From: Monosiga brevicollis MX1
Taxonomy: Eukaryota > Opisthokonta > Choanoflagellata > Craspedida > Salpingoecidae
Length of the DNA: 64,000 nt
Assembly (NCBI RefSeq): GCF_000002865.3
Contig: NW_001865047.1
Span: 630,482 to 694,481, forward strand
Direction of reading: 5' to 3'
Shown: positions 18,980-61,934 of the stretch, one piece after another
How positions within the stretch are numbered: the first letter of the stretch is position 1
Layout: the number at the start of each line of letters is the position of its first letter
Translations under genes and position numbers: made by a program
Notes under the pieces: generated by a model
Databases searched by the model: none
Told to the model about the DNA's origin: nothing
Seen by the model: only the letters and a program-made list of their open reading frames with translations

Positions 18980-21900
18980 ATGAGTGATGGAAAGCGGCTG
19001 TACCAGGCGTGTGGTTCATCAGATTCCCGAGAGGCGCTGCAGCTGTTGGCCAGTTGGGACCACCAACGTATTCGAGCTGCTGCCAAATACATAGATAAGG
19101 TACGTATGCTGGTTCGGTATGACATTGTATGACTCTGGTTACACTTTGAATATATCACTGATATGGTGACATATGGTATAAAATAGGACGTCAAGTCATA
19201 CTACCACAGCGCATCATGTTATACACCACTGCACAGGGCCTGCTCTGAAGGTCGTGTCAAGTTGGTGGAGATGCTGTTGAAGCACGGTGCTGATGCTGAA
19301 GCCAAGAGCAACGTCAGTACAGGACCTCCTTCTTCCCTCCCTCCCTTCTGGCTGCTGCTCCTGCTCCCGCTGCTCGTCGCCTTTGCCCTGTCCCTCTCTT
19401 CCTCTACATACCCTGGGCCCCCGTGCGCGTCCGCTGCCTCTTGCTCTTTTTCTTCTTTCCCACTATCCCTCTCCTTTTCCCGTTTTGCGCCTGCCCTTTG
19501 TGGGTGATCCGTTGGCCCCGCTCTGTTCCCCGCTGTATCTTCCGCCTGCCGTCCTCGCCCTTCCTTTTCTGATGCTGTGACTTCAATCCAGACACCATCC
19601 CATCCCTGGTGGCTTCTGCCTCGCCTTTGTTGTGAGGAAGAAATGCATATCGCCCAACTCAACCCTGGCGTCGCTGCTCACCTCGCGCGCTCCGATCTCT
19701 TGACTGTGGCCATGTTCCCAGAATGGCAAAACGCCCCTCGATCTAGGAACTGAACACGGACATGGCGACAAGCTGGAGCCCGTGTTTGCTGCCCGTGAGG
19801 CTTGCATCTGGCTGCCGCCGCTGCCCAACGCCACGCCCACCCATGAGGTGAGCCCCTCTTTCCCCTTGTTTTCCCCAAACAGGCATCCCACTCGCAACCT
19901 CATCCCTCATCCAACTGAATCACCAATGACTAATCTTCCACACAAATCACCATTAGACCACGGCCTCTGTTGTGGTGGCGGTCGACACCTGGCTCAAGCC
20001 GCTCCTGCCCAAGCGCACCACCACCCATCGTCTCCCCCATCTCGATGCTTTTGTCACGGGGGCTGTCTCGCACCTCCCCAACCGCGACGCGCTTGCCAAC
20101 ATGAAGAATATCATTGATGGAGCACCATTGGTCTTTTTATCCGTGGACTGGGCTGCCTTCAAGGTGACCACCACCCAGGCACTTGGTGCGCTCGACCAAG
20201 CACTGCAGGCACCCGAAGCGTTAAACAGCCGCTTGAGCCAGCTAGACCCAAACTCCGACAATCTAGAATCGGTGCTTAAAGAGCTGCATCAGCTCATAGA
20301 GCAGTTTGACCTGCAGCCGGCTCTTCTCGAGCTACAAACTGCACTGGCAGCATGCCCCGCACCGCCGACTGCACCAGCGTCCTCACCAGAAACACCGCCG
20401 ACCGACTTGGCAGCCGCCCTGGACAAGGTTATCGCCCTGAGCGACGGCGGACCCGAGCTGCAAGAATTGCTCACCACCTCCAACAACAACCTCAAGGGGT
20501 TGATTCTGGCATTTATCGATGCTCTGGGCGCCGTGGCAAAAGCAGGAACAAGCGACACGATTCATCGTGTAGACACGCTGCGACAAATTGCGCACTGTCA
20601 ACACGTTGACGCAGCGCCTCCAGCCGAAGCATTGCCCGAGGCCTGGGAGCAGCTGTGCCAGGCCCACCAAAACCTGAGCGCGCGTAAGCAAAATGGTCTG
20701 GAACAAATTGCTCAGTGGCAAGCCCCTCCAGAATACGAGCATCAGGGCTGGTATTTGACGTTTGTTCTTCATGAGTCACAGGCCTTGGCGCGGCAATTGC
20801 AAGACATGATCAAATGGCAGGACATAACACGATCTGCGCTGACCTCGTGCATAAAATATGCCAATGAAATCATGCAGAGCAACCCGGATCAATTTGTATC
20901 TGCACATGAGGAAATGGCCAAGCTGCATGAGCAAATCCAGGCCACCACAGCATGCTTGAGCTTTGCTTCAGACAAGCTGCGCCCTGTCCTCGAAGATGAA
21001 TTGCAGGAGAAAAGAAGACATCTAGCCACGTTACAGCAAAAGCTTTCAGCTGAACCACACGTGGATCACGTCGCAGAGCTCACCCAGCTGCTGCATCAAC
21101 ATTTCCCAGCTCTGTTGGTCTTTTTGCACCCTGAGCAGAGCACGCTGGGAAAGCGACTTCGCACTGTGCTCGGGGCCGACCTTCCGGCCAGCCTCATCTT
21201 GGAGGCCATGACCGAAGTAGACCAGCGGTTGTCGCTGACTGACTTGGGTCAACTTGAGCTCCACTACTACCAAAACCACAAGGTATACAAAACCCGAGCA
21301 GCGCTACCAGATTGCCCCGAGCAAGATCTGGCTGTGAAGGAATTTGCACTTGCCCGGCAGCACAAGCAGGATCAATGCCGCACGTTTCTTCGAGAACTTC
21401 GCGCGATGCGCCAGCTTGAGCACCCACACATCATCCCGGTCCTCAGTGCGCTTGTGGACGTGCGAGACGGCCATCCGAGCGCCTACCTGGTGCAGCCATG
21501 GTGTACACAGGGTGATTTGCAGCAGTGGCTCGGCAAGGCGCGCCACCTGGCCACCTCGACCGTGATTGCAGGTCTGATGGCTCAGCTGCGCACGGCTCTG
21601 GCCTTTATGCACAGCAAGGGCCTGGTACATCGGGATGTCAAGCTGAGCAATGTCATGTTGGACGGCGAAGAGGACCAGCCGGTTGTGCGGCTCGGCGATT
21701 TCGACATTGCCAAGGCCGCCGCTGAAGCCACGATGTTGCCGTGCACGGCCACTGCATCGTCGGGCACGGCAGGCTACGTGGCGCCCGAGGTGCTTTTTGG
21801 CCTAGGTCGTGTGGGCGCGCGTCCGGCACAGGATGCCTTTTCCTTTGGCTGTGTGCTGTACAACACCTACATGTTCCCGCAAACGGTGCCACCTGCTCGT

Positions 21901-23092
21901 TTACCCACGGACCAGCTTGCTGAGAAATGCCAATGGGAGGCAGGAGCAAGAGGTGCAGAATGCAGTTTTTCGCACTTAGCGGCTGAGGTGAGCAACATCG
22001 CAATGTCTCTTGACCGACAACTGAGCACCGCTTTGATTGCGCTTTGCTTTGCCGACCTTTGCTGCAGATGTGCGATTCGACGAGCGATTTGTACAAGGAA
22101 ACGCGAGCTTTGCTCGCAACGGATCCGAAGCAACGGCCAAGCCTCTTCAACGCTGGGCAGCATGCGCAGCAGCCTGCCATCGCTCAAGTGGGACCAGCCA
22201 TTGACGTTTTGCGTGACGCGCCCGAGCTCACTTCAGAGGTGCGTGGCTTGTTGATTTAATGCTCTTTCACAAGTCGTCTGATTTGAAACAACTGTGTGGC
22301 TAGGTGGCTGAGCTATTGAAGCAGCTGAACACCGACGCGCGGGGGCCAGCGAATATTGCAGTACAGCGGGTTGAGCGCGTGCAAAACCCCGTGCTGTGGG
22401 AGCGCTACAGTGCCAAGCGACGTGAGATGTTACATCGCATCAAAAAACAGGAGCACTATAATAAACTCCAAACGGCCACCTTGGATGCGCTCCCAGGCCT
22501 TCCAGCTCTGCTTCGTGACTCATCCTGTCAAGAGCGCCTGTTGCTCCACGGCATTGCCCCCGACGCGAAGTTGCGCGACAAGATCGTGCGCCTAGGCTTT
22601 GACTATCGCTTTGCCGGTAGCAGCGCCGGCCACCAGTTTGGGTATGGTGTTTACTTGGCCGACCACCCCGGCAAGGTGCGTAAAGCGAGGGCTTGAAATG
22701 ACAACTCGAGGGATGCTGTTCTCATAAAGTGTATGTTCACATGATGTTAGAGTCATCAGTACGCCGGTGCTGGACCCAATGGTGAGCGGATGCTCGTCAT
22801 CGCCCGAGCGCTGCTGGGTCGTGCCCATGTGAATGCAGCACCGCCTTCTAGGGCGTTGGCTCCTCCGCTCCTCCCCAAAGCGCCCAACAATGAGCGGTAC
22901 GTTGGACAGAATCATGTCGTAGTCTCAGCAGTTGTGCGCCTTTGGTCGACTTAAACCGACTGTTGGGCTCGGTATCTCCTTAGGTATGACTCGGTTATCG
23001 CGGCGCCGCAACGGCAATTTGCCGAAGTCGTCATTTTTGAGAATACACAACTCTATCCTGAGCTGGTGGTGTACTACACGGCAGCAGATTAG
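18980..23092 (+). CDS. Ankyrin-repeat / protein kinase / PARP fusion protein
   Basis: Exons 18980-19099, 19187-19312, 19722-19847, 19957-21987, 22068-22238, 22304-22675, 22751-22896 and 22984-23092 give 1066 residues. Residues about 1-110 hold two to three ankyrin repeats (CYTPLHRACSEGRVKLVEML; GKTPLDLGTEHGH). A long helical region follows (about 130-545). A protein kinase domain spans about 550-800: AVKEF (Lys 585), HRDVKLSN (Asp 684), GDFDIAK (DFD instead of DFG at 705-707), GTAGYVAPEV. The C-terminus (about 870-1066) is a PARP catalytic domain: LLLHGIAP (His 940), FGYGVYLADHPGKSHQYAG (Tyr 975), YDSVIA, and YPELVVYY, whose Glu 1057 sits at the tankyrase-type catalytic Glu. The H-Y-E triad suggests an active ADP-ribosyltransferase that could make polymer. 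Exon 4 is 2 kb. A signalling or innate-defence role is inference. Confidence 0.88.
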
Positions 23093-33832: not shown

Positions 33833-36800
33833 ATGGCGGCTGCGGTCCCCGCCGACTTGGACGCCGTTCCAAGGACGGACGTTCTTGACAACGTGACCAA
33901 GCTTCGCCCCAAGCCCGCCAACAAGAGGCCGCCCACCCGCCAGCGAGCTCCAGCTGCTGCTGCCGTCGCCGCCTCCCCCGCTTCTCCCGTCTCCTCCTCG
34001 GCTACAAAACATACTGACCCCAAACCCAAGCGCCGCCGCGTAAGTCGCATTCTCAATCCTTGCTCTTTTGTGCAATGCTTGATTCAAACTGCAAGCACCA
34101 CTGCCTGGCCGTTCAGGCAAGGCTAGTCGTTGTCCCGGTTTAGTCCTTTTTCTTTAGTCCCTTTTCCTGGCTCACCGGCCCTTTGCTTGGTGTCCAATGC
34201 CACCTGTCAGTTCCAGTTTGGTGGCCGTTCCAAGACATATGCCGCAGATCACATTGAGCCTTCCTCAGGCGAAGAAACAGACGGCGATGTCTTTGAATCA
34301 CACACCCCTCGCTCCAACTCAAAGGTACAGGCCCGTGCCCCGAAACTGCCCCAAAACTGCCCCTCTCTCTTCTTCAATCAAGACTGGGACTCAAGTCTTA
34401 GCCGACACCATCTCATTCTTCCACACTGATGCCTGGCTCACCGTGCTTCTTGGGCGCTCTGCCCCTGCTTTAATTCTTTCAGCGCCACAAGATGAGCAAA
34501 AAGGGTCATCGTCGCGTTGACAAGGAGACGGGCGAAGTCTTTTTCAAAAACGTCAAATCCCAAGAGCTCATGTCTGCCATTCAGATGGGCATTCGCCAAT
34601 CTATTGGTATGTCTTTCCCGCCCGTGTGTGCTCCTGAGATTTCCAAAGGACAATTCTTCACACTGACTTGTTGAAATCCCTGACCATAGGTTATGTAATG
34701 CAACGGCGCAAGCGCGACATCTTGGTCCAGGACTTTGACGAAGTCGAGTCTCAAAACTACCCCCGCGAAGGCACCTCGACAACCCCAGCCCATCACTTTG
34801 AGTCTTTCAAGTTTTCCACCTACGCCCCCGTGGCTTATCGCTTTTTCCGTGAAAAGTTTAGCATTGACACTGGCGTACGTAGCTCTGCATCGTTCCCGCC
34901 TTCTTGCCTGCTCTTCAATGGATGATGCATCAACAAAGGAGCAAGCGCCTTTTCCTGTGTGGGACTTTCTTATTTTCTCCTTGAAAACTGGTTTGCGTGC
35001 AAGAGAGGCACCTCACGGTTGATGATCAACAATGCCATTCATGCGCTGTGATTAGGATTTCTTGATGTCGATGTGTGACTCGCCGCTCCGTGAGCTATCC
35101 AATGCCGGTGCCAGTGGCTCGCTGTTCTGGCTCTCCCATGACGATTTGTTCATCGTAAAGACCGTGCAAAAGGGCGAGTCCAAGTTTTTGCGCAAACTCC
35201 TCCCAGCGTACTATCTCAACATTACACAGAACCAACGGACGCTCCTTCCCAAATTCTTTGGTCACTTCTGCTACAAGAGCGCTTCGGGCCGGCACATCCG
35301 CTTCATCATCATGCAAAACATCCTACCCTCGAACCTCTCCTACGCTGAGCGTTATGATCTGAAGGGGTGCGTTCCCAACCCTCGCTTCGCTAAATTTCGT
35401 GCTGTCATCGGCCATCGTCTCACATGGTGCGGACACTCTTGCGCTCTCCTTGGCCTTTGATTGATCCATCCATGGCGGTAGCTCGACCAAGGGACGTTTT
35501 GCCTCTGAAAAAGAGCTGACGAAGAAAAACCCGACGCTCAAAGATATCGACTTTATCAAGAAGCACGCCAACGGCCTCATCATGTCCGACCGCACATATG
35601 AACAGTTGGTCGGCACCATTGAGCGTGACGTCCGTGTTCTTGAATCCTTTCGCATCATGGACTATTCCCTCTTGGTCGGCCTTTTTGTACCATCCCGAGG
35701 CGCGCCGAGCGCCTATTCAAGCTCCTCTGCCCATCAGTTCACTGTGCGAGCCAATGGTATGCTCCATCTCCCACCCACCCCCTGTGTTGCCGAAAGTGTG
35801 CTATTGTCTGGTCAACACATCCATGCGCCCCTTATTCCCACCATGCCTCTTTCTCCTGCCGCCCTGATCTTCTTCCGGTCCTCTGTGTCTTGCCCTTGCT
35901 GCTTTCCTTCTTCGTGATTTTTCTCCTACTATATTATCTGTTCTCCTGCTTCTCATCACGGCGTTTACCCTTTGTTTCCCATCCCTCAGCGAGCGCGAGC
36001 ACAAGTACCGTGCACCTGTGCACCGTTTCCGGTGCCCCTCCCGTCGAGGGGCTCAATCTGAATGGCGTGTACGAGTCCCGCCAGGGTCGCAGCAAGGACG
36101 GGCGCTTCAAGTTTGTGATGGTGCAGACCACTCACAACAACCGTTCACTGGACGAGAGCGACGATCAAACAGATGGCACCTCCGGCCCCAGCTCCGTGAC
36201 CAAACTTTACATGAGCTTTGACGACACCAATTCACAATGGCTCATTGCGCGGGACCCGGAAAACTTTGTGGTACTGGCCAATCTGCAAACATCAGCCATG
36301 TTTCCAAACTCGGCCGATGCGGCTTGGCAAGTCAAGGACGGCGATCACTTTCGGGCCGTTCCCGCCATGGAATCACGGTGTCGCGAGCGTGAAGTTGCCG
36401 TGAACCCCATTGCCAGCAGCAATGCTGCGGCATCGTCACGCATGCGCCGGCGCAACAGCATCGTCTTTCAGACAGTAGATACGGTGCGTGAATGTGCCTT
36501 TCGCTTACTTGCCGTCAGCAAAGGGCTGAAGAGGGCATATTGCTTTTTTTTTTCGGCTCTCGTGCATGATAGTTTCATGCACGTGTGCGTTTTCACATGC
36601 TTCCAGCATGACACACATCAACTCATGCATCCGACTGCTACACTCACGCACATATAGAGTGATGGCGAAGATGATGAGCAGCTCATGAACGGAATCCCCG
36701 CCTACAACAGTGATGGTCAAAAAGTATACCTCTATGTGGGCATTATTGATATTTTGCAAAATTACGGCACGCGCAAAGCGCTCGAGCATACTTACAAGTC

Positions 36801-38193
36801 CATGATCTATGACGGTGACACCGTTTCCGTGCATCGCCCTGACTTTTACCGCGAGCGCTTCCTGCGATTCATGACGGACCAGGTGTTCCGTCCAAGCGGT
36901 GCAGCTTCCGGGCCGGGCTCCCTGCACCTGACCCACCGGCCTGTCAACGGTGCCGGGGCGAACGCGAACCCGGTCGCAGCCACAGGTACGACTGTTGGTA
37001 CGGCGGGCCGTCGGCGCCGCCCGGGCAGCATGTCGGACACGGAGGGGCATAGTGGGACAGAGTCGGCCGCCTCCAGCCGACCGCCATCACAGCGAGACGA
37101 TGACCCGCGCAAACGCACCCTGCGTCCGCAACTTATGACCGACGAGGACCTTGAGCACATGCGTCGCGCAGCCGTTCCGTCGACTCGCCGCCACTCATCC
37201 TCGGCAGCGCCGCCCAAGCACTCTCCGACTACACGCCGTCGCCTTCCGCACAGCGACTCCATTGAGGAGCAAACTCCATCGGATAGTGGGGTGTCGCGAC
37301 CCCCACCTTTGGAGCAGCTGGGTGACGCGCTGGCCCACGCTTCACACGAGGCTGCTTCAGCCCCCGCCACACCCACCAAGATTACAGTTCAGTCGTGGCG
37401 TCTGAGCAAGGATGACGATGAGGATCAAGGTGACGAGCTTGAGAACACGACGGCAGCGGGTGCAGATGTTAGCGCGAGTGAGAGCGAGACGGAAGCCACG
37501 GCTACTGGACCAGAGCTTGGCGAAAATATGGCTGCGCACGTGGGCCGCCTACCCAATGTGTCTCCGCGCGGCCCTGCCTCGAGCTCACCCGTTGGCCGTG
37601 GGGCCTCGATTCCCGGCTCACCACTGGCTAATGTCACGGCAGCACCTCGCGCCAAGGGCGAAGGTGAGGGAACAACAGCCCCCCAAATAGCGGCCAGTTC
37701 TGCCTCCATGGCTACCACACTGCCACCAGCCGCTCGTTTGTTGCTGCATGACTTTGAAGAGGACTCGGAGCCGGATGGCCCGGCCAGCCCAACCAGCCCA
37801 ACCGAAGTTCGGAAAAACGAAGCGCGTACCGTGTCCTCATCCGATGACGGCGAATCGCCTGACGCAGCCGCGTCTGGGCAAGAAACCCTTGTTGCTGATG
37901 TACCTTTGCCAGGCGCGCCTGTGCGTGGCGCTGCGAAACAGCGTTTAGAATCGCCGATCGAACCGCGCCTGGATACTTTGGAACACGTGGATGTTGATGC
38001 CGTGGATGCGACCGAGTTGCATCACCAAGACCAGGACTCCGTGAACAGCGCTGGCGCTTCCTCGCAGCCAAAAACGAAGGGCGAGGTGGCAGAAACAACA
38101 CAGGGCCACGACAAGACTGGTGCTCCAACCTTCGAGCTCGACCAGTCCGGCACTCACAGTGATGAGGACGATATTTCTGAAATTTTGGTTTGA
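33833..38193 (+). CDS. Phosphatidylinositol 4-phosphate 5-kinase (type I) with long tail
   Basis: Exons 33833-34039, 34211-34324, 34483-34606, 34690-34874, 35056-35366, 35482-35756, 35990-36483 and 36658-38193 give 1081 residues. A disordered Pro/Ala/Lys-rich N-terminus is followed by the PIPK catalytic domain: ELMSAIQMGIRQSIG, FKFSTYAPVAYRFFRE, LSNAGASGSLFWLSHDDLFI, IVKTVQKGE (ATP-site Lys), LLPAYYLNITQNQRTLLPKF, RYDLKGSTKGRFA (DLKGS), FRIMDYSLLVG (catalytic MDYSLL), VYLYVGIIDILQNYG, and DTVSVHRPDFYRERFLRFM. It makes PI(4,5)P2 at the plasma membrane, the lipid that also gates the Kir channel in this window. Oddity: after the domain (about residue 645) comes a tail of over 430 Ser/Pro/Glu-rich residues with no recognised domain. 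An insert of about 130 residues interrupts the domain between exons 6 and 8. Confidence 0.93.
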
Positions 38194-39346
38194 GCCAAGC
38201 TCATGACGCACGCTCGAGACTCTGCTAGCCTCTTTTCTTGTTTCTTTCTGGCTCGCGTTGATGACAGGGGCGGGGACATTCTCGTGCTGGTCTTCGCTGG
38301 TCTTGCAAACCTTGACCAGGGCGAGAACGGACGGCTTTGGTCTTGCGCGTGCCTGAAAGTGTGTGCATCCTTGAATTGGGCGATACATGTTTCGCGCTTC
38401 ATTCCCACTTACCCTGACTGTGAATGGTTTTGAAAGATTGACAATTTTCTTTATCTCGTCTTCGTTGCGCATGACATGTTTGCGGCATCCCAATTTTATT
38501 TGCGGCTTGCGTTTTGTGCAGCAATTCTTTTTGTTTGTTTGTTTGTGCAGCTAGGTTCTTTTACTTTGGGGCGCGCATTGCCCTTCTCCTTGGTCTCGCA
38601 TCTTGAGTTTGATCTTCTGTGGGTGGCCAGAACCACCAATTTATGACAAAGCGTTTGGCCCATCTTTTTTTTTTGGTATTGGGAGCAAAACAACCTCATG
38701 TATGCAGCAAACATGTGCACAATCGCTCAACCACAAACAACAAAAACAATCCATCAAAAGCAAAGTCAAAGTTTGGACCTTGTGCTTAGGGCTCATTTTC
38801 TTCTGACGGTTCATATGGAAGGTTATCCAGCCGGTGTGTATAGCTGATCCGAAGCAAGTGGATTATCGTAAAGAAACAGCTGTGAGGCGAGCCCAGGTCT
38901 GAGCATTCCAGATGCCTTGAATCCTTCAGTCTGAAGCTTTCCTCGCGCTCTGGGCGGGCAGCGTAGTGTCTGTTCGTTGGACAAGTCAACCTGTGCTCAA
39001 AAGGCGTTTGGTTGTGCTCTGTCAAGCCAGCAGCGGTGCCTACAAGCGCCGAGCCTGGCAACGGAAGGGGAGGCAAGGTACACGCGCCTATTCAGGGCGT
39101 CAGCACCCGGCCGTCTCCTATCCGTCACCCACCTTCCTTCCACTTGCATCACTTTGATCGCTTTTTTTTTTCTGTTTTCCGTTTCTGCTTCTTGTGTTGA
39201 TTAGTGTCAAGCACGGGTCCACTAAAAGTACACAACAGCAGAGGGAAGCGCGCAGTCAATCGAGCAAGTAGAAAAAAAACAATCGCTGCCAGAAACCAAC
39301 AATACTTTGCGCTGCTGGAGATGCAAAAAAGGGCAAAAAGAAAGCT
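38194..39346. other. Intergenic region 3' of PIP5K
   Basis: No protein gene supported. T-rich stretches (38665-38675, 39160-39175) and a short GTTT repeat (38530-38545) are present. Its right end is the 3' flank of the tRNA gene, with T runs on the minus strand. Confidence 0.5.
39325..39339 (-). terminator. RNA polymerase III terminator of the permuted tRNA
   Basis: On the minus strand a T5 run (39339-39335) starts 7 nt after the end of the 5' half, followed by GCCC and a T6 run (39330-39325). A terminator directly after the 5' half means the transcript ends without a second 3' half, as a permuted gene requires. Confidence 0.75.
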
Positions 39347-39453
39347 TACTAGACCAACGCTCTACCACTGAGCTAAGGCGCCGAGAACCGGTTGAAGGGT
39401 TCCAAGCAGTGGTTATGAGGCACCTACGAGAATTGAACTCGTGACCTTTGGTT
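39347..39453 (-). tRNA. Circularly permuted tRNA-Thr(AGU) gene
   Basis: Read on the minus strand, 39453-39418 is the 3' half of a tRNA (positions 38-73). Then come a 35-nt spacer (39417-39383) and the 5' half (39382-39347, positions 1-37). Rejoined in normal order they make a complete 72-nt tRNA. Acceptor stem GGCGCCT/AGGTGCC pairs fully (one G-U); D stem GCTC/GAGC; anticodon stem TTGGT/ACCAA; anticodon loop CTAGTAA with anticodon AGT (Thr); variable loop AGGTC; T stem ACGAG/CTCGT with loop TTCAATT; discriminator T; no encoded CCA. The break is between 37 and 38, the canonical tRNA intron site. The B box (in the 3' half) therefore precedes the A box (TAGCTCAGTGG). No matching half lies on the outer side of either piece. 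Known processing of such genes goes through a circular RNA intermediate cut at the anticodon loop by tRNA endonuclease. Confidence 0.88.
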
Positions 39454-40364
39454 AACTGTGCTGACAGTGCCGAGCATAAATTTGTATATAAAGCCAAGTA
39501 TTTATATTTGTCATACTATTTTGATGTGGGAAATTCTTATGGGAAAACGCGCGAGATACTTGCGACGTCACTGCTGAGCGCTTCCGTGTTACTGGTCGGT
39601 CAGGCTGGGGGACGCTTGCCGGGTGATGTGGTGCCGGTCACGCTTCTTGTTCATTCCTTCGTCGACGGTGAGCTACATGCTGTGAGCTGCGTTGAGGCTC
39701 TACCTGCCCTTCCATCACCCAGGGCAGACGTCCATTGCTTCAGTGGTGGTAAACGTGCTCCGTTGGCACGAGTTTTGATGCAAGCCCGGGGCGGTCCCCA
39801 ACACGCTGACGATGACTATTCGTGGGCGTGATTCCGCCTACGTGCCCCACAGAGCCCAGCGATCACACACGGTTGTCAGCATGCAGATTCTTCAAGATGG
39901 GGGCCACGCACACGAGTCAAGAAGAAGGCCAGTCACTGCGGTATCGCCGTGGGGAATGAGTTGACGGCATTGTTCATGCTCTACGTTTGCTCTGCGATGA
40001 CTGCTTTTTTCACCACGTCCCGACCGCCATATGGGTTGAAATTCATTAAAAATATCATCAAGCAAATTTGCCTAAAACTTGATTTGAGGCAAAGCAAGTT
40101 TCGAACCCCTCTCAAGCTTGCGCCCATCGTGTTCACCCCTACGGACTGCTATTTAACGTTGAGTTTCCGAATAGCACACCGTGCCGGGGCTGCACTTCTC
40201 ACCGACACTCTATGAACAGCGTGATTTTTCAGCACGCTTGTCTTTTCAACTCTGCTGTTGTCGCGACCGTGGAACGAATTGAGGAAGGTATGGTATACAA
40301 TTGATTGGCAGACGACGGCCGGGAAGTTGTCTACAATTAAAAGGACACGTTAGATATAGGAAAA
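39454..40364. other. Intergenic region 5' of the permuted tRNA
   Basis: It lies between the tRNA and the 3' end of the poly-Asp gene. A plus-strand open frame of 127 codons (39448-39831) overlaps the tRNA's leader and lacks splice or family support. No other feature recognised. Confidence 0.5.
39484..39492 (-). promoter_or_regulatory. TATA-like element upstream of the permuted tRNA
   Basis: The minus strand reads TTTATATAC about 31-40 nt upstream of the first tRNA base (39453). Upstream TATA-like elements are common at Pol III genes whose internal boxes are displaced. The position fits, but the area is A/T-rich, so chance is possible. Confidence 0.4.
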
Positions 40365-54186: not shown

Positions 54187-57100
54187 ATGGCCGCCTGCAA
54201 CAACATTGAGCAAGGCGCAGACATGACTATCTTTGATGAACTGCTGGAAGAGCGCATTCAGTATGTTTTGGGAGACTAACCCCGCGTGCTTTTGTGTCCG
54301 CGTGCACGGTTGCTCATCCTGTTTCACTGACACGTCTTGCTAGAGATGCTGCCTCGGCCATGTCGTCTGGCTGGTCTATTGTCGATCCCAGCGATGGTAT
54401 GTTCATGTGTCTCTGTAAATTAAAAAAAAAAAAAAATTATGGTGAAGTTTTTCCATTAACTTCTGCGAGATTGATCAAACTGCACTTCTCACTCAGTATG
54501 CTGCTCCATCGTTGTGTGCTCGGTCGTGCATGCTCGTTTTTAGCCTCCAGCGCAGGCATCGAACATGGCTCTTTGGCACAAAGTGACGCAAGTCCAGGAG
54601 TCACGCCAATGACGGCCGCTATGCCATCTGATGCGCCCCGTACTGCCTTAGCGTCGCCCATCACTCGTGGAGGCGCAGGAATCCAGATCAATGCTGATGG
54701 CACGTACACGATCAAACACAGTGCCACTCTCAATGTGATGGTGATGGCCAATTTGTGCTTTACCTGGGCCTCTGCTCAATTTGAGAAGATCAGGGACTTT
54801 GGCCTAGCTGCAGGCAAACGCCCCGGCTGTCTATTGCTGGGTGACAGCGGCGTGGGCAAGTCAATCTTGATGATGACGTTGGAGGGTGTTCGCTTTGAGG
54901 AGGGTCGAACTGCTGGTGGACGCAAGCAGCTCAACCTTGAATACGGCACCCCACCGAGATACCGCGGCCTAGTGGGCAACGGGACCGAAGCGCACACGGT
55001 GATACCTCGACTTGCCATGCTTGAGGATGCAGTCTTCATTGACCCTCCTGGCTGGACAGAGACGCGCAACGAGACGCTCGGCCTCATCAACTGTATTCTA
55101 CTACGACAACTCCTCGAGGCTATACAGCGCAGACGCATTGTACTTGTGCTTAATTATAAAAGCATGAGCGGCGCTGGCTATCTAGCCAACCAGCTGCAAA
55201 GCCTGAACCGACTCTCGCCCGACTTTGCAGCCTTGCAGCCTGGTTTCGTTTGTCTCTTTAGCCATTTGGAGGCTGAAACGGATGCAGAGGCCATTATTGA
55301 GCACCTCGATCAACATGCAACCCGCCTGGATGTTTCCGAGTCTGTTTTTCAGCAAAATGTGCTTGCTCACATCATTTCTCAGCTGCGTCGCTGGGGCAAC
55401 GCGCTATTGCTTCGCCCACACTTGAAGCAGCCCTCCCCAGAACATCTTCGCGATTTGCTCATCAACGGTCTCAGTGATTGTCAGGCCCCATCCATACCGC
55501 TGGGTTCACCCCTACAAGATGGCAAGTTGGCTGCTGTGCAAAATGCCGCCAACAACGTGCTTGAACGCCTACACGACTGCTTGAACGATTCTGATCGACC
55601 CAGTTGGGCCTCAGGTGTCAAGATGTTGTCCACGTTACGCCGACTCAGTGCCCTGCTGGCCAATGCCTACATCACCTCACTGTATGACAAAGCCTTGGGT
55701 TCTTTGTATGGCATGTTTTCCTGCCACACGCAAGGCTTTTTGAGCACGCTGCGTCAGAACAGCTTTGAAGCTTCGCGCGACCACTTTGCGGCACTCCAGC
55801 ACCTTGATGCTTACAACAAAGAACTGCGGCAGCATCAAGCAGTCGACCACGGCTTGTTTGCCCGTCTCTACTCATACTGCGGTCTTTCGATGCCAGAGAC
55901 TACCACTTGGGACCAGGAAATGCTCAAAAGTGACCTTTTAAAGCAAGCCCAAGACTGGGGCACGACCCTGGCAACGCAGACGATGGAGGCCAACCAAGAG
56001 CAGTCGTTTGCACCACGACCAGAGGCGATTGAAGTAGCCACAACTTTGACTCGCTTTGATCAGCATCTGGGCTCTCTTTGTTGCGAGTCTCCCCTCTGGA
56101 ACCCAATTGCACAGGATCTGCAACGACAAGCACGCGAGAGCCGAGCTATTGGCAACAGCATCATCGAGTGCCTGTCCCATGCGGACACATCCAACAAGAC
56201 TCCAACAAATGCATCGTGGCAAGCTTTGCGCAATTCTTTCAATCTACTTTCACGGGCCCAGGCCTACAGTGCTCTCGTTGAGCTCGAGGAAACCAGAACC
56301 CTGTTTAATGAGCAGCAAGTGCAGATAAGCCACGCCTACGAAAAGGTGTGTGATCATGTCGCTGAGATTGTGAGTTGCTTGGCCCACGAGCACGTTGACG
56401 CCGAAGCCAGCCGGGATCTTTGCATCCTGATGCAACTACTCCGGATCTTGGACGACTCCTTTGACAAAGAATGTCACGCTGCTAGCGCCAACCGTCCACA
56501 GTATCGGGAGCAGCTGGCGCGTTTTGAAGCAGCCATCCGTGAGCGCATCTGTAATGCCATCTCCACAGCCCAAGACGGGGCCCGCCTCGAGAAAACCCGA
56601 CAAGCACTCGACCAGCTTCTGATTCTGCTTATGTGCTTTCAGTCCAATGAGGTGGTGCGTGATGCGCATCGCCATGCCTACAGTTTGCTCTGTCAGCTCG
56701 CCACCAAGCAAAGCATGTGCCAGGCCAAGCTCAATACCATTCTTCAATACGAAGCAAACGGAGAAACGTTTCGCGATATGGCTGTTGCCATTCGGGAGCT
56801 TGAGCTTTGGAGTTGGCTCGACCCGATGCTTGCAGACGGTCGCTTACTGTGCGAGCCCACCCGTGCCAATGGCGATCCAACAAACGAGCCCAGCCGCAGT
56901 TTGTCCATCGCAAACATACAGAGCGTTGTCGAACAGACGGTGGAGGGTCTTCGTGAGTGTCTGCGTGCAGCAGTGGTCAATGTGTCGTCGTCTCTCATGA
57001 ACGTCAACGCTGTGCAGCCCGAACGTGAGCTCGAGTGCTTGAAGCACATGCACCCAGTGAAACAAGTGATAGGTGAAGAATTTGTCGATGAGCAAGTGGC

Positions 57101-60100
57101 TCTGCTTATCAATAACCTTGGTGGTGTGCAAACACGCTTGAGTGCCTTTGACATAAGCCAAACCACTGAGGGCGTGCGCGAAGAAACGCTGCAGTGGCTC
57201 TCGTCTTTGACTCTGCAGGTGGAGCAGCTGAGCTCTTGCTACCCCATGCTGCGCAGCACAGCATGGGCAGCGTTGTTGCAAAGCCTGGCAAGCAGCCGTG
57301 CTCAGATCGTCGACAACGTTCGCGCGTTGGTGAGGCAGCTACATGAAGCTGTGCGTGAAAAATTGGCAAGCCCGCAGCCAGCAACTGCTGGCGCCGAACT
57401 TGATCTTTTGGCCAGCTTGGTGCGGAGTCAAGATCACGAAATTCAATCCATTGTGGACCCCGTCTACAATAAGGCTCAACAGGATCTGCGACGCCGCTTC
57501 GAAGAGCTGCGGACCCAATACACGGAGCACATGAGTGCCGGTGGTGTGGAAATGGCACAGACAGTCAAGAACGTGCTTATCAGCACAGTGGTCCTTGAGT
57601 TGCATTTGCCCGAGGTAGCCGATATCCTGTCCACCCTCGAAGTGATGGATGCAGAAGCTATGACCAAGGTTAAAGATGAATTGTCACGCAGTCTGGCGGA
57701 CGTGGACTACGACCAAGTTCAGGGAATTTTGACCGAAGTCCGGCAGGCGGCCCAGCAAACGCCTGAGTGGCGAGCACCATTCAGTACTCTTTGTGGGCTT
57801 GCTAAACGTGAGCTGCAGCGGCAGACATCTGAAGCTTTGAACGCAGCCAAGCGCCACGCTCGCACTTGCACACGCGCGCGTGCACCCACCGAGGCACGTG
57901 CGGACGCTTTGAGCCAACTGGACGAGCTGGATCGCTTCTTCTTCAGCCTGGAGGTGCTTCACGGGGAGGTTACCGAGCCCGACCTGCAAAAGATTGACGA
58001 AGGCTTTGCCGCAATCGTGCTGAAGGTCGCTGAGGACTTGTCACGACGCCTGGGCATAGCTCTTGCTGCGTATCGCTTTACCGCATTTCACGATCTGTAT
58101 CTTGACCTCGAGGCGTGGGAGTGTTTGAGCCGCAATGAGGCTGCCAATGCGTGTTTCTTGACCATTCAAAACAAAGTCAACACATTGAGTACTGACGTGG
58201 AACAACATGTCAGACAGCTGATCGCTGCAGCCGATGGTGTTACGCTGGCTAGTGTCGTACAAGCCTTTGTCAATGCGCGGGATGAAAGCGCCGAGCTGTT
58301 GCAGCATGTGCTTGATCTACCGGCTCTCGCCAACAGAGTCTGCGACTGGGTGTCTAGTGCCGCTGAGCAAGAGCTTGTGGCTATTCAAGCATCGCTGTAT
58401 CACGAGAGGCAAAACTTGAAAGTGGTCGAGGACCGTCTGGACCGCTACAACCGATGCTTCTACTTTCCTCTGCAGAGCAAATCTTTGCCACCCTTTCAGA
58501 CTGAGCAATCTCGGTTGAGTCAAGATCGTCAGCGCCTCCAAAAGGCAATGCAAAATATACTGCACAAGAGCCGGTATCCAGCCTTGACACCACAGGTGGC
58601 GCATGGCCTGCTCCAACGGCTTAATACCAGCAAGCCGGAGCACATGCACGCCTTTATTGACGTCGCTAAAACCACCTGCCAAAAAGCTATTGAGGACATT
58701 CTGCAAGGACGATCCCATAATGAGTTAGGGGTCAAGGTCACTCCTGACGCCCTGGATCGCTTGGCAGGCCTGACTGCATTTCACGCCGGGCTCACGCAGT
58801 CGACGCTCAATGAGACGTTTGTGCAAGATATCTTGGGGGAAGTCCTGACCACAGCAGAGCGCGCCATTGCCTCGCAGCTTCATGCAGATTTGAAGCAGTG
58901 CTTCGACTCCTTCGTCAATTGGCGCATTTTGGAAGCTGAAGCAGCATGCGAGACTATTCAGACCAGCTTTGACCGCTTCAAAGCACTGAGTCCAGCGGCA
59001 TCTGTCCCCCTTGAGCCTCTGCTCGCTCAGGTTCTATCAGAAAAATCAGTCAAATCAACCACCTTTCAATATGGCAGTGACCGGGTGGATCAACTCAGTC
59101 TTACAGACTTGACTCAGCCAAGCTTTCAGGCCAAAACCCTGTGGGAAAGACTGCAGGTGCTGCAGCGGGCGGCGAAAATGTACGAAGAACAAGCTCCTGC
59201 CATCGTGGTTCAGAACAGTCGCATGTGCAACCCTCACGACACTTTGCAAAAGATTCAGCGACACTGGAGCGACCTGTGCCAGCAAGTGGTAGCGGCCGTT
59301 CAGAGTCATCTCCATGCGCCTGGGCCAACAAAAACAATTGGCGCGTTGCATCGTGTTCTTACCAAACTTGCTTTGGACCCGCAGCCCTGGCTTGAGGCAG
59401 ATCTCAAGCAAGCACAAGAAAATGTCGAGACTAGCTTGATGCAGTTTGCCGCAGCTGCCGCCGATCGAGTACCCAGTCACGTGGCCGAGAAGAAATGGGG
59501 ACCTTTGAACAAGGAAATGCGCTTCTCGTTTGATCTGGCCGCAGACCTGACATCGTTTTCAGATGCATCGCGCATCGGCACCATGCAGGAAGAGGCATTG
59601 AAGGCTGAGCTCGACAAGCGAACCGAACCATTTGTCGACGATTTAGAGCAGCTGGCAACGTGTCTCGTCAGCATGCAAGAGCTGGCCTCGAATAGCATCT
59701 CTGGTCACATCAAGCATCAAGTCAAGCTCCTCACAACCAAGCGACTGCACGAGCTTCGTCAGTCGGCCGGTGGCAATCGCCGAAAGGAGCGTGACAATGA
59801 TCTTTGCCTTGGACAGCTTCTGTCTAGGAGAGAACATGGCAGGTATGGAGAAGAGGTCAAAGCAGGCCACCCACAATTCGAAGCCGCACGCATCAAACAG
59901 CGTCAGGAGGCAACGCTTGGCATGGGCATTGACCAGGCTCTGAAGGAGATGACCAAGCCAGAAAATTCCGCAAAAGTTTCGCCTGCTCATGCAAATCGTC
60001 TACGCGATGCTTATGGCGCGTATCGCTCCGAGTTTGAAAGTCACATGAAGAACCCCAATCAAGTACCACGTCTGGTGGCCCAAGTGCAAGCCAATTGCCG

Positions 60101-61934
60101 CAAACTGGCTCAGACACCTTCCAAAATGTCACAACAACTGCCCGGTCTGTTAGCACTGTTGTCGGCTATCTGGAGCCTGACCAGCCTAGCAGAACTGGCC
60201 GAAACCACACGAACACACCACGGCATTTACAAGGAGCTTCATGTCGTGCAAGTTTTGGCTCTGCTCGAGCTTTTGGGGTTTGGTGCCGGCGATGATTCCC
60301 TAACTCGTTTCGGCACGTGGATCAAGGCCTTTGTGGGCGGCCAGGAAAACAAGCTTGGTGGAGCTTTTGTGCAGGTGCAAACTGGCGGTGGCAAGAGCAT
60401 CATTTTGGGCTTTGCTTGCGTGCTCTATGCGTTGTTGGGCTTCGATGTATCATGTGCGTGCTACAGTGACATCCTGAGTTCGCGCGACTACAAGGATTTT
60501 GAGGCATTTTTCAAGACCATGGGGGTACATGGCAACATTCGATACAGCACCATGCAGGCCTTGGCTGAAAGGGAGCTGAATGCGCGGGGATGCATGCGTA
60601 CAGCCGTTCAGCGTTTGATTGCCGACAACACCCTGTCTAAGCGCAAGAAGCCCAAAGCCTCACGGCCCAAGATCTTGCTGGTCGATGAGGTTGATGTCCT
60701 TTTCGCCCCCATCTTCTTAGCTGAGACTTATAATCCCTTGGCATCACAGAAGGACGCAGACTTTGAGAGTATCTTGCGGACACTATGGCAAGATGCAACA
60801 CTGTCCCTGGAGCAAGTGATCAACCTTGAGGCGTCCCAACGTCTCTTGCAACGCTACGCTCATGTTCATGACTACATCATGACGACTTTGAAGAAGCTCG
60901 TGAAAGACCGGGCGGCACATGCGGCCGAAGAGCACCCGTACACAGTTCAAAATGGTCGGATCGCATATGATCTCGCTGGGCTCGATCAACCTTCAACAAG
61001 CACTTTTTATGGATATGAGACTCAATACGCCTATCTGACCGAAGAACACCGTGCCGACGAGCCGAACACGATTCAGTCGAAATTTGCCTTACATGCGAAT
61101 GCAGGCAACTTCAGCTTTTTCAAGATGATTCAGAACTTTGATGTGGTCGGTGGCCTTTCGGGAACACTGCCCGACGACATGACAGTGCTGAAGAGAGAAC
61201 TCAATGTTCAGCGATCGACGGCCTTACCCAGCATGTACGGTGAACACAAATTGCGGCGTGATCGTGTGCAGATTGTTGCAGACTCTGATCGCTTGCATCA
61301 GCAGGTCGCGGAGGAGTGCTTGAAGCAATCCGAAGGTCGCGCTGTGATTGCTTTTTTTAAGGATACAAAGGACTTGCAAGCGTTCATGGCATCCACCCCG
61401 TTTAAAAGCCAGCTGGCAGGCCTGACAATCAACATCATCGACAAGGACCAAGCCGACATACCGCAGCGCATCCACCAGGCTACCAATGCGGACACCGTGA
61501 CACTGGCAACAGCCCCTTTTGGCCGTGGCTCGGATTTCGTCGTATTGGACCGCAACATTATCGACAATGGCGGCGTGCACGTGATTCAGACGTTCTTGTC
61601 ACAAGATATTGCGGAGGAAATCCAAATCCAGGGGCGTACGGCGCGTCACTCCAACCCAGGAAGTTACCGTTTGATCCTATCATTGCCGGATCTGAAGCGT
61701 CTACTCGGCTCTGACTTGCTCAATTCATTGACGGAGGGTGCATATGAGGGTGTGCCTGACGTGCTTGATCAAGCGCGGCGCAATTTGCACAAGGAAACTT
61801 TGAATAAGTTGTTTGACAAGTTGAAGGCTTGTGAGGGTAGCCATGCCCGTTCGATGCAATTCATGGACGCACTCTTCGCCGGACCCGAAGGCAATGTACA
61901 GGAAGCCATCCAACTCTTCTTGAGTCACAACTAA
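54187..61934 (+). CDS. Giant GTPase-like / SecA-like helicase fusion protein
   Basis: Exons 54187-54260, 54344-54396 and 54544-61934 give 2505 residues; the last exon is a single 7.4-kb frame. N-terminal P-loop domain: GDSGVGKS (Walker A, about 142-149), VFIDPPGWTETRNE (DxxG switch), and VLNYKSMSGAGYL / CLFSHLEAETD where a G4 motif would be; no clear NKxD. About 1600 residues of helical, coiled-coil-like sequence follow. The C-terminal 520 residues match the SecA motor: QVQTGGGKSI (about 1989), ILLVDEVDVLF (DEVD about 2090), GGLSGTLPDD, ATAPFGRGSDFV (about 2369), and EIQIQGRTARHSNPGSY (arginine-finger motif, about 2405). The SecA fold, preprotein crosslinking and zinc-binding tail are not evident. 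An ATP-driven translocase or remodelling motor is likely; substrate unknown. Start and first two introns are inferred from phase. Confidence 0.85.

Follow-up and report, generated by a model that had tools for sequence, protein, structure and literature searches.

Can a tRNA gene whose two halves stand in reversed order give rise to a working tRNA in a choanoflagellate? This question is raised by a locus on the minus strand of a 64,000-base stretch (hereafter the window) of the genome of Monosiga brevicollis, one of the Salpingoecidae within the Craspedida. Read along the minus strand, the locus opens with a TATA-like box (TTTATATA, 39485..39492), recognized by direct reading, whose start lies 39 nt ahead of the 3' half, and continues with a conserved leader (TGTCAGCACAGTT, 39454..39466). 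The 3' half of tRNA-Thr(AGU) (positions 38-73; 39418..39453) comes first and contains the T-arm with the B box, the 3' acceptor strand and T73. It is separated by a spacer of 35 nt (39383..39417), leading from nucleotide 73 to nucleotide 1, from the 5' half (positions 1-37; 39347..39382), which carries the 5' acceptor strand, the D-arm with the A box and the anticodon AGU. A conserved trailer, AGC, lies directly 3' of the 5' half (39344..39346) and is followed by a Pol III-type terminator (39325..39339) composed of TTTTT (39339-39335) and TTTTTT (39330-39325). No T-run is present in the spacer as read directly; a GGAACC/GGTTCT hairpin is possible there, with a predicted fold of -6.5 kcal/mol. 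Both coordinates and sequence agree with the original prediction, in which a 3' half precedes a 5' half on the minus strand with 35 nt between them. An open reading frame with a match to the PIP5K C-terminal region (window 36685-38193, plus strand) is separated from this locus by about 1.1 kb.

No tRNA was detected in the window as it stands, either by ARAGORN or by Rfam at the gathering score, as is to be anticipated with halves in permuted order. The 72-mer obtained by rejoining the halves was identified by ARAGORN as an intact tRNA-Thr(agt). Its stems (7+4+5+5) contain 21 of 21 standard pairs with a single G-U in the acceptor stem, which bears out the claim that all four stems pair after rejoining and that the anticodon is AGU. 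U8-A14, G15-C48, G18G19, U33, the UUC of the T-loop at 54-56 and U73 are all in place as read from the sequence. Agreement with the genome's ordinary Thr tRNAs extends to the anticodon loop and the acceptor stem, to T73 and to the tertiary positions, and CCA is encoded in neither. Taken at the level of sequence, these features support the prediction that an opisthokont carries a tRNA-Thr(AGU) gene in circularly permuted form.

A search for permuted tRNAs, which had been proposed for the whole genome as a check on the prediction, was performed on the window with a covariance model (R2). Its training set consisted of 13 ordinary tRNAs of the genome permuted in silico; the permuted genes were left out of this set, which does include two Thr paralogues. 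R2 recovered the Thr locus as the single match at E<=10 in the 64,000 bases (39453-39347, minus strand; 73.7 bits, E 4.5e-23 on a short calibration). A chance pairing of the two halves is ruled out by this match. Over 13 loci, R2 gave 73.7 bits for each of five permuted copies and at most 29 bits for anything else, and over 8 further loci of ordinary tRNAs, tandem clusters included, the best score was 31.1 bits. An earlier model (R1), in whose training the permuted gene itself took part, scored the permuted copies at 79.2 bits and, by linking adjacent genes, gave ordinary tRNAs in tandem as much as 63.1 bits. Half matches of ordinary tRNAs are therefore a real background, from which R2 separates the permuted copies clearly.

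Searching 39,470,161 bases in 57 contigs with the rejoined 72-mer gave 13 matches, of which 3 are full-length ordinary tRNAs (on contigs C54 and C56 with anticodon CGT, and on C46 with anticodon TGT) and 10 are half matches that form five loci in permuted order. These are located on C48 at 669827-669938 (the window locus), 596566-596677, 595604-595715 and 594730-594841, and on C45 at 417666-417780. No solitary tRNA-Thr half is found among the 13 matches. The 3' half lies upstream on the same strand, with a 35-nt spacer, in five of five loci, and this spacer falls in the known range of 1-74 nt. An assembly error had been named beforehand as one way in which the prediction could fail, and the recurrence of the same permuted order at five loci on two contigs argues against it.

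The five loci were aligned gap-free, anchored at the 3' half. Any two copies are identical over the 3' half (36/36), the spacer (35/35), the 5' half (36/36) and the trailer AGC (3/3), and all pairs agree at 12-13 of the 13 leader positions. Beyond the unit, similarity drops to the level of unrelated DNA: 39-66 of 200 positions agree between copies in the upstream flank (101-300 bases) and 49-74 of 240 in the downstream flank (about 60-300 bases), so that the outer flanks show 20-33% identity. A similar arrangement, with conserved leader and trailer in unrelated flanks, is seen in the ordinary multicopy families Arg-ACG and Asn-GTT. Selection, gene conversion or copying through RNA could each account for the identity of the five permuted units.

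It could be argued that such a locus is what remains of a tandem tRNA-Thr pair after loss of its outer halves, a functionless relic in which a 3' half happens to stand before a 5' half. Ordinary tRNA genes in the M. brevicollis genome do often lie in clusters of the same type (see also PMC2888827), and tandem duplication is one of the origin models published for permuted genes, as given in a review of them (PMC3978253). However, all 21 pairs hold in the rejoined tRNA, and the halves, spacer and trailer are the same in five copies despite the unrelated outer flanks, with leader, TATA-like box and T-run kept; moreover, the T-run of an upstream gene is missing from the 35-nt spacer. Neither decay nor divergence is seen, the stems, TATA-like box and T-run being intact in five copies that are identical over halves and spacer, and we reject a remnant or pseudogene as very unlikely. 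The original prediction had used complete pairing as an argument against a decayed tandem duplication, and the argument is strengthened by the five conserved copies.

Putative signals for transcription accompany every permuted unit. The element TTTATAT is present at a constant distance upstream in all five copies, as TTTATATA in 4 and as TTTATATG in the one on C45, and downstream each of the five has a T-run. Together they enclose the entire permuted unit, with no terminator between the halves, and the two signals predicted for the window locus are thus found throughout the family. For comparison, the regions upstream of ordinary tRNA genes were taken as 48 distinct stretches, with shuffled sequences as control. 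A TATA-like motif occurs within 70 bases in 36 of the 48 (shuffled mean 19.9), and at -46 to -28 from G1 in 29 of them (shuffled mean 6.8, maximum 12). The box of the permuted genes therefore stands at a distance common among ordinary tRNA genes (29/48), and since 12 of the 48 stretches have no such motif in 70 bases, a TATA box is common in this genome and not universal. Upstream-directed transcription has been proposed in the review as the way in which genes with swapped A and B boxes are read (PMC3978253). A search for the TFIIIC family PF04182 gave one sub-threshold match in the genome, which carries no information, as the control for the family also matched 8 of 14 prokaryotes.

The original prediction placed the break exactly at 37/38. 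That position is possible, and so is 38/39, since an A flanks the break on both sides (CTAGTA|AGC and GTT|AACC). As read from the sequence, C32 has a potential partner in the leader G at -3, in the manner of an anticodon-intron pair, and a 3-nt bulge, UUA, is then left at the 3' cut. A pair of the C32 type together with a three-base bulge at the 3' cut is the arrangement in eukaryotic tRNA introns, and the leader G-3:C32 pair may play a role at the junction. Leader and trailer can also pair there over a short stretch, as AGC/GCU or AGCU/AGUU. With these pairings, a bulge-helix-bulge or hBH motif may exist around the junction. The AGCT/AGTT helix, put forward in the prediction as a possible endonuclease recognition element, is whole in 4 of the 5 copies; it is weak, the C45 copy (AGCC) is without the fourth pair, and neither covariation nor a compensatory change is seen among the copies. 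The unconstrained fold of the linear precursor (-32.4 kcal/mol) is not a full cloverleaf, and a cloverleaf imposed on it reaches -31.5 kcal/mol.

On these grounds, we consider it very probable that the window locus is one of five nuclear permuted tRNA-Thr(AGU) genes of M. brevicollis whose product is matured through a circular RNA and read as IGU. We infer its transcription, cutting, circularization, ligation and use in translation from the arrangement of the gene and by analogy with the circle pathway known from algae (PMC3978253). RNA polymerase III would initiate downstream of the TATA-like box and produce one linear RNA consisting of a short leader, the 3' half, the spacer, the 5' half and a short trailer. 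This precursor would fold into a cloverleaf with its open ends within the anticodon loop, where the tRNA splicing endonuclease would cut at 37/38 (or 38/39) and so release leader and trailer. The anticodon loop would then be sealed by a ligase, for which RtcB is the simplest candidate, giving a circular RNA in which the spacer links nucleotide 73 to nucleotide 1. The spacer would be excised from the circle by RNase P and tRNase Z, and CCA addition followed by deamination of A34 to inosine would complete the tRNA. The tRNA endonuclease family PF01974 is represented in the genome by two loci, on C41 (in two pieces) and C42 (in one piece), and RtcB is present on C50 in 8 pieces.

The halves might instead be joined in trans, by pairing of two transcripts, and not within one circular molecule. 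Five copies that yield identical halves make pairing between transcripts chemically possible, and for the permuted Thr genes of M. brevicollis the circle is carried over from algae. Against this, the halves lie 35 nt apart within one unit from TATA to T-run, which is the setting that gives circles in algae according to the review (PMC3978253), and no half stands alone among the 13 genomic matches. Joining in trans is thus hardly to be expected, and maturation through a circle is the reading we follow.

Would the cell need such a tRNA? In five mechanically defined open reading frames of the window, ACC and ACT make up 142 of the 273 Thr codons. A Thr(GGU) tRNA is not normally known from eukaryotes. 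An intact ordinary Thr(AGU) gene was not found, by a DNA search that reaches close relatives and a tRNA family search in which 63 of 760 candidates were scored; several such genes would have spoken against the original prediction. An ordinary Thr(AGU) gene too diverged for these searches may be present elsewhere in the genome. Queries resembling the human tRNAs (Val(AAC), Thr(AGU) and Ala(AGC)) gave zero matches in a DNA search that needs close relatives, and the ordinary Ala(CGC) gene as query returned four ordinary matches and no permuted ones. An exact 25-mer and a 23-mer of the 3' half were absent from viral and prokaryote contigs, where choanoflagellates are not expected.

Thr(AGT) is listed among the eight eukaryotic I34 tRNAs (PMC8266599). 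For the larger codon families, a tRNAscan-SE study of M. brevicollis, S. rosetta and C. owczarzaki describes A34 in 22 of 24 major tRNA genes, with threonine as an exception in the two choanoflagellates and a Thr(AGT) gene that is apparently missing from S. rosetta (PMC6188563). A permuted gene would explain this reported gap. Alternatively, the loci might chiefly yield a small stable RNA, circular or tRNA-like, that acts in some other way, while an ordinary Thr(AGU) gene not seen here supplies translation. This would fit a spacer as conserved as the halves (35/35 in all pairs) and the possibility of such a gene, but it is the least credible account of all, given that the tRNA resembles ordinary Thr tRNAs in its anticodon loop and acceptor stem as well as at T73 and the tertiary positions, and that transcribed flanks are conserved in ordinary multicopy tRNA families too.

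Permuted tRNA genes have been reported in red algae, in green algae, in a nucleomorph of green origin and in a single archaeon (PMC3978253, PMC12633428), the green algae with reported genes including Auxenochlorella (PMC12633428). The closest counterpart is the permuted Thr(AGT) gene of C. merolae, which according to the review shares with the M. brevicollis gene the amino acid, the anticodon, the order of the halves and a junction in the anticodon loop, as well as the upstream TATA-like box, the downstream T-run and a terminator-free spacer (PMC3978253). The two differ in the spacer, which is 24 bp in C. merolae (PMC3978253) and 35 nt in M. brevicollis, and in copy number: M. brevicollis has five, whereas in the table of 34 genes only Gly(CCC) of C. 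merolae occurs as two genes with an identical product (PMC3978253). The host is an opisthokont, unlike C. merolae, and its permuted tRNA-Thr is a predicted product. In prasinophyte green algae and the Bigelowiella nucleomorph the 37/38 junction predominates (PMC3978253), which is one of the two junctions possible in the M. brevicollis genes. However, the permuted genes tabulated for these hosts are for Ser, Leu, Cys, Arg, Asn and iMet and not for Thr, and the hosts are algae or derived from algae, a lineage other than that of M. brevicollis. The permuted tRNAs of Thermofilum pendens likewise have the 3' half ahead of the 5' half, but their junction is at 59/60, CCA is encoded, the spacers are 7 and 1 nt long and the endonuclease is archaeal (PMC3978253). 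By order of halves, spacer length, junction, TATA-like box and T-run, the M. brevicollis gene can be assigned as a putative type II (37/38) permuted gene.

A permuted tRNA gene as such is of a known kind; what is new is the opisthokont host and the five-copy family. The original prediction knew of no permuted tRNA gene in choanoflagellates, and our search of the literature, conducted mostly outside subscription journals, found no report of one either. A permuted family of five copies, in a member of the animals' sister group that is used in laboratories, would extend permuted tRNA genes to Opisthokonta and would be consistent with independent origins wherever an upstream TATA box accompanies tRNA genes. 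It would make testable whether opisthokont splicing turns a back-to-front transcript into a tRNA needed by ACC/ACU codons.

Other tRNA genes of the same genome appear disrupted as well. Two Ser(GCU) genes (C48:212570-212636 and 212997-213063) carry an insert of ~60 nt in the T-loop, beyond which lies the 3' acceptor strand; its sequence, CGGCATC, is complementary to GATGCCG at every position. The Rfam match at these loci covers positions 8-63 only, and when the insert is taken out ARAGORN finds a tRNA-Ser(gct) in which the T-loop has 7 nt and the acceptor stem is paired throughout. In five Lys(CUU) loci (four copies at C32:250951-252778 and one at C53:857446-857528) the T-arm is interrupted twice, by an insert of about 15 nt in the loop and by a variable one before the 3' acceptor strand RTGAGGC. 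An AT-rich TATA-like stretch lies upstream of these loci and a T-run downstream, and one copy yields tRNA-Lys(ctt) once both inserts are taken out. Inserts removed by hand tend to fit a tRNA, and the Ser(GCU) and Lys(CUU) interruptions are therefore predictions. The five loci are probably the five putative tRNA-Lys pseudogenes of the tRNAscan-SE study, which gives one tRNA gene per lysine codon besides the pseudogenes (PMC6188563); an ordinary Lys(CUU) gene, absent from our search matches, may thus exist.

The Ser(GCU) and Lys(CUU) cases raise the likelihood that disrupted tRNA genes are tolerated in this genome. We lean towards the view that choanoflagellates have a Cyanidioschyzon-type set, in which the permuted Thr(AGU) genes provide the sole reader of ACC/ACU, Ser(GCU) has a T-loop intron and Lys(CUU) has two T-arm introns. 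If this is true, an opisthokont splicing endonuclease would cut outside 37/38, and both the missing Thr(AGT) of S. rosetta and the Lys(CUU) 'pseudogenes' of M. brevicollis in earlier scans would be explained.

Four tRNA-Phe(GAA) genes on C35 present a further arrangement, in which an ordinary tRNA lies within a longer conserved unit, its leader of ~44 nt and its trailer of ~40 nt being nearly identical in the four copies. Leader and trailer can pair around the tRNA in one predicted fold, and TGCTTGGAAC is common to the tRNA-Phe(GAA) trailer and the Thr spacer, perhaps by chance.

The composition of the window and its proteins are consistent with a eukaryote of 49-57% G+C. Among its open reading frames on the plus strand, one contains a protein kinase domain (19972-22254) and another, of 2546 aa (54294-61934), shows a SecA DEAD-like domain (E 2.2e-8) in a eukaryotic genome, with a weak, sub-threshold match to the SecA P-loop near the C-terminus. 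The mitochondrial genome of M. brevicollis has been described as 76.6 kb in size with tatC present (PMC7027106); in the assembly, the mitochondrial contig is 76,568 bases long, 32,000 of them given as N, and its products include TatC as well as Nad and Cox proteins, so that it matches the description in length and in tatC.
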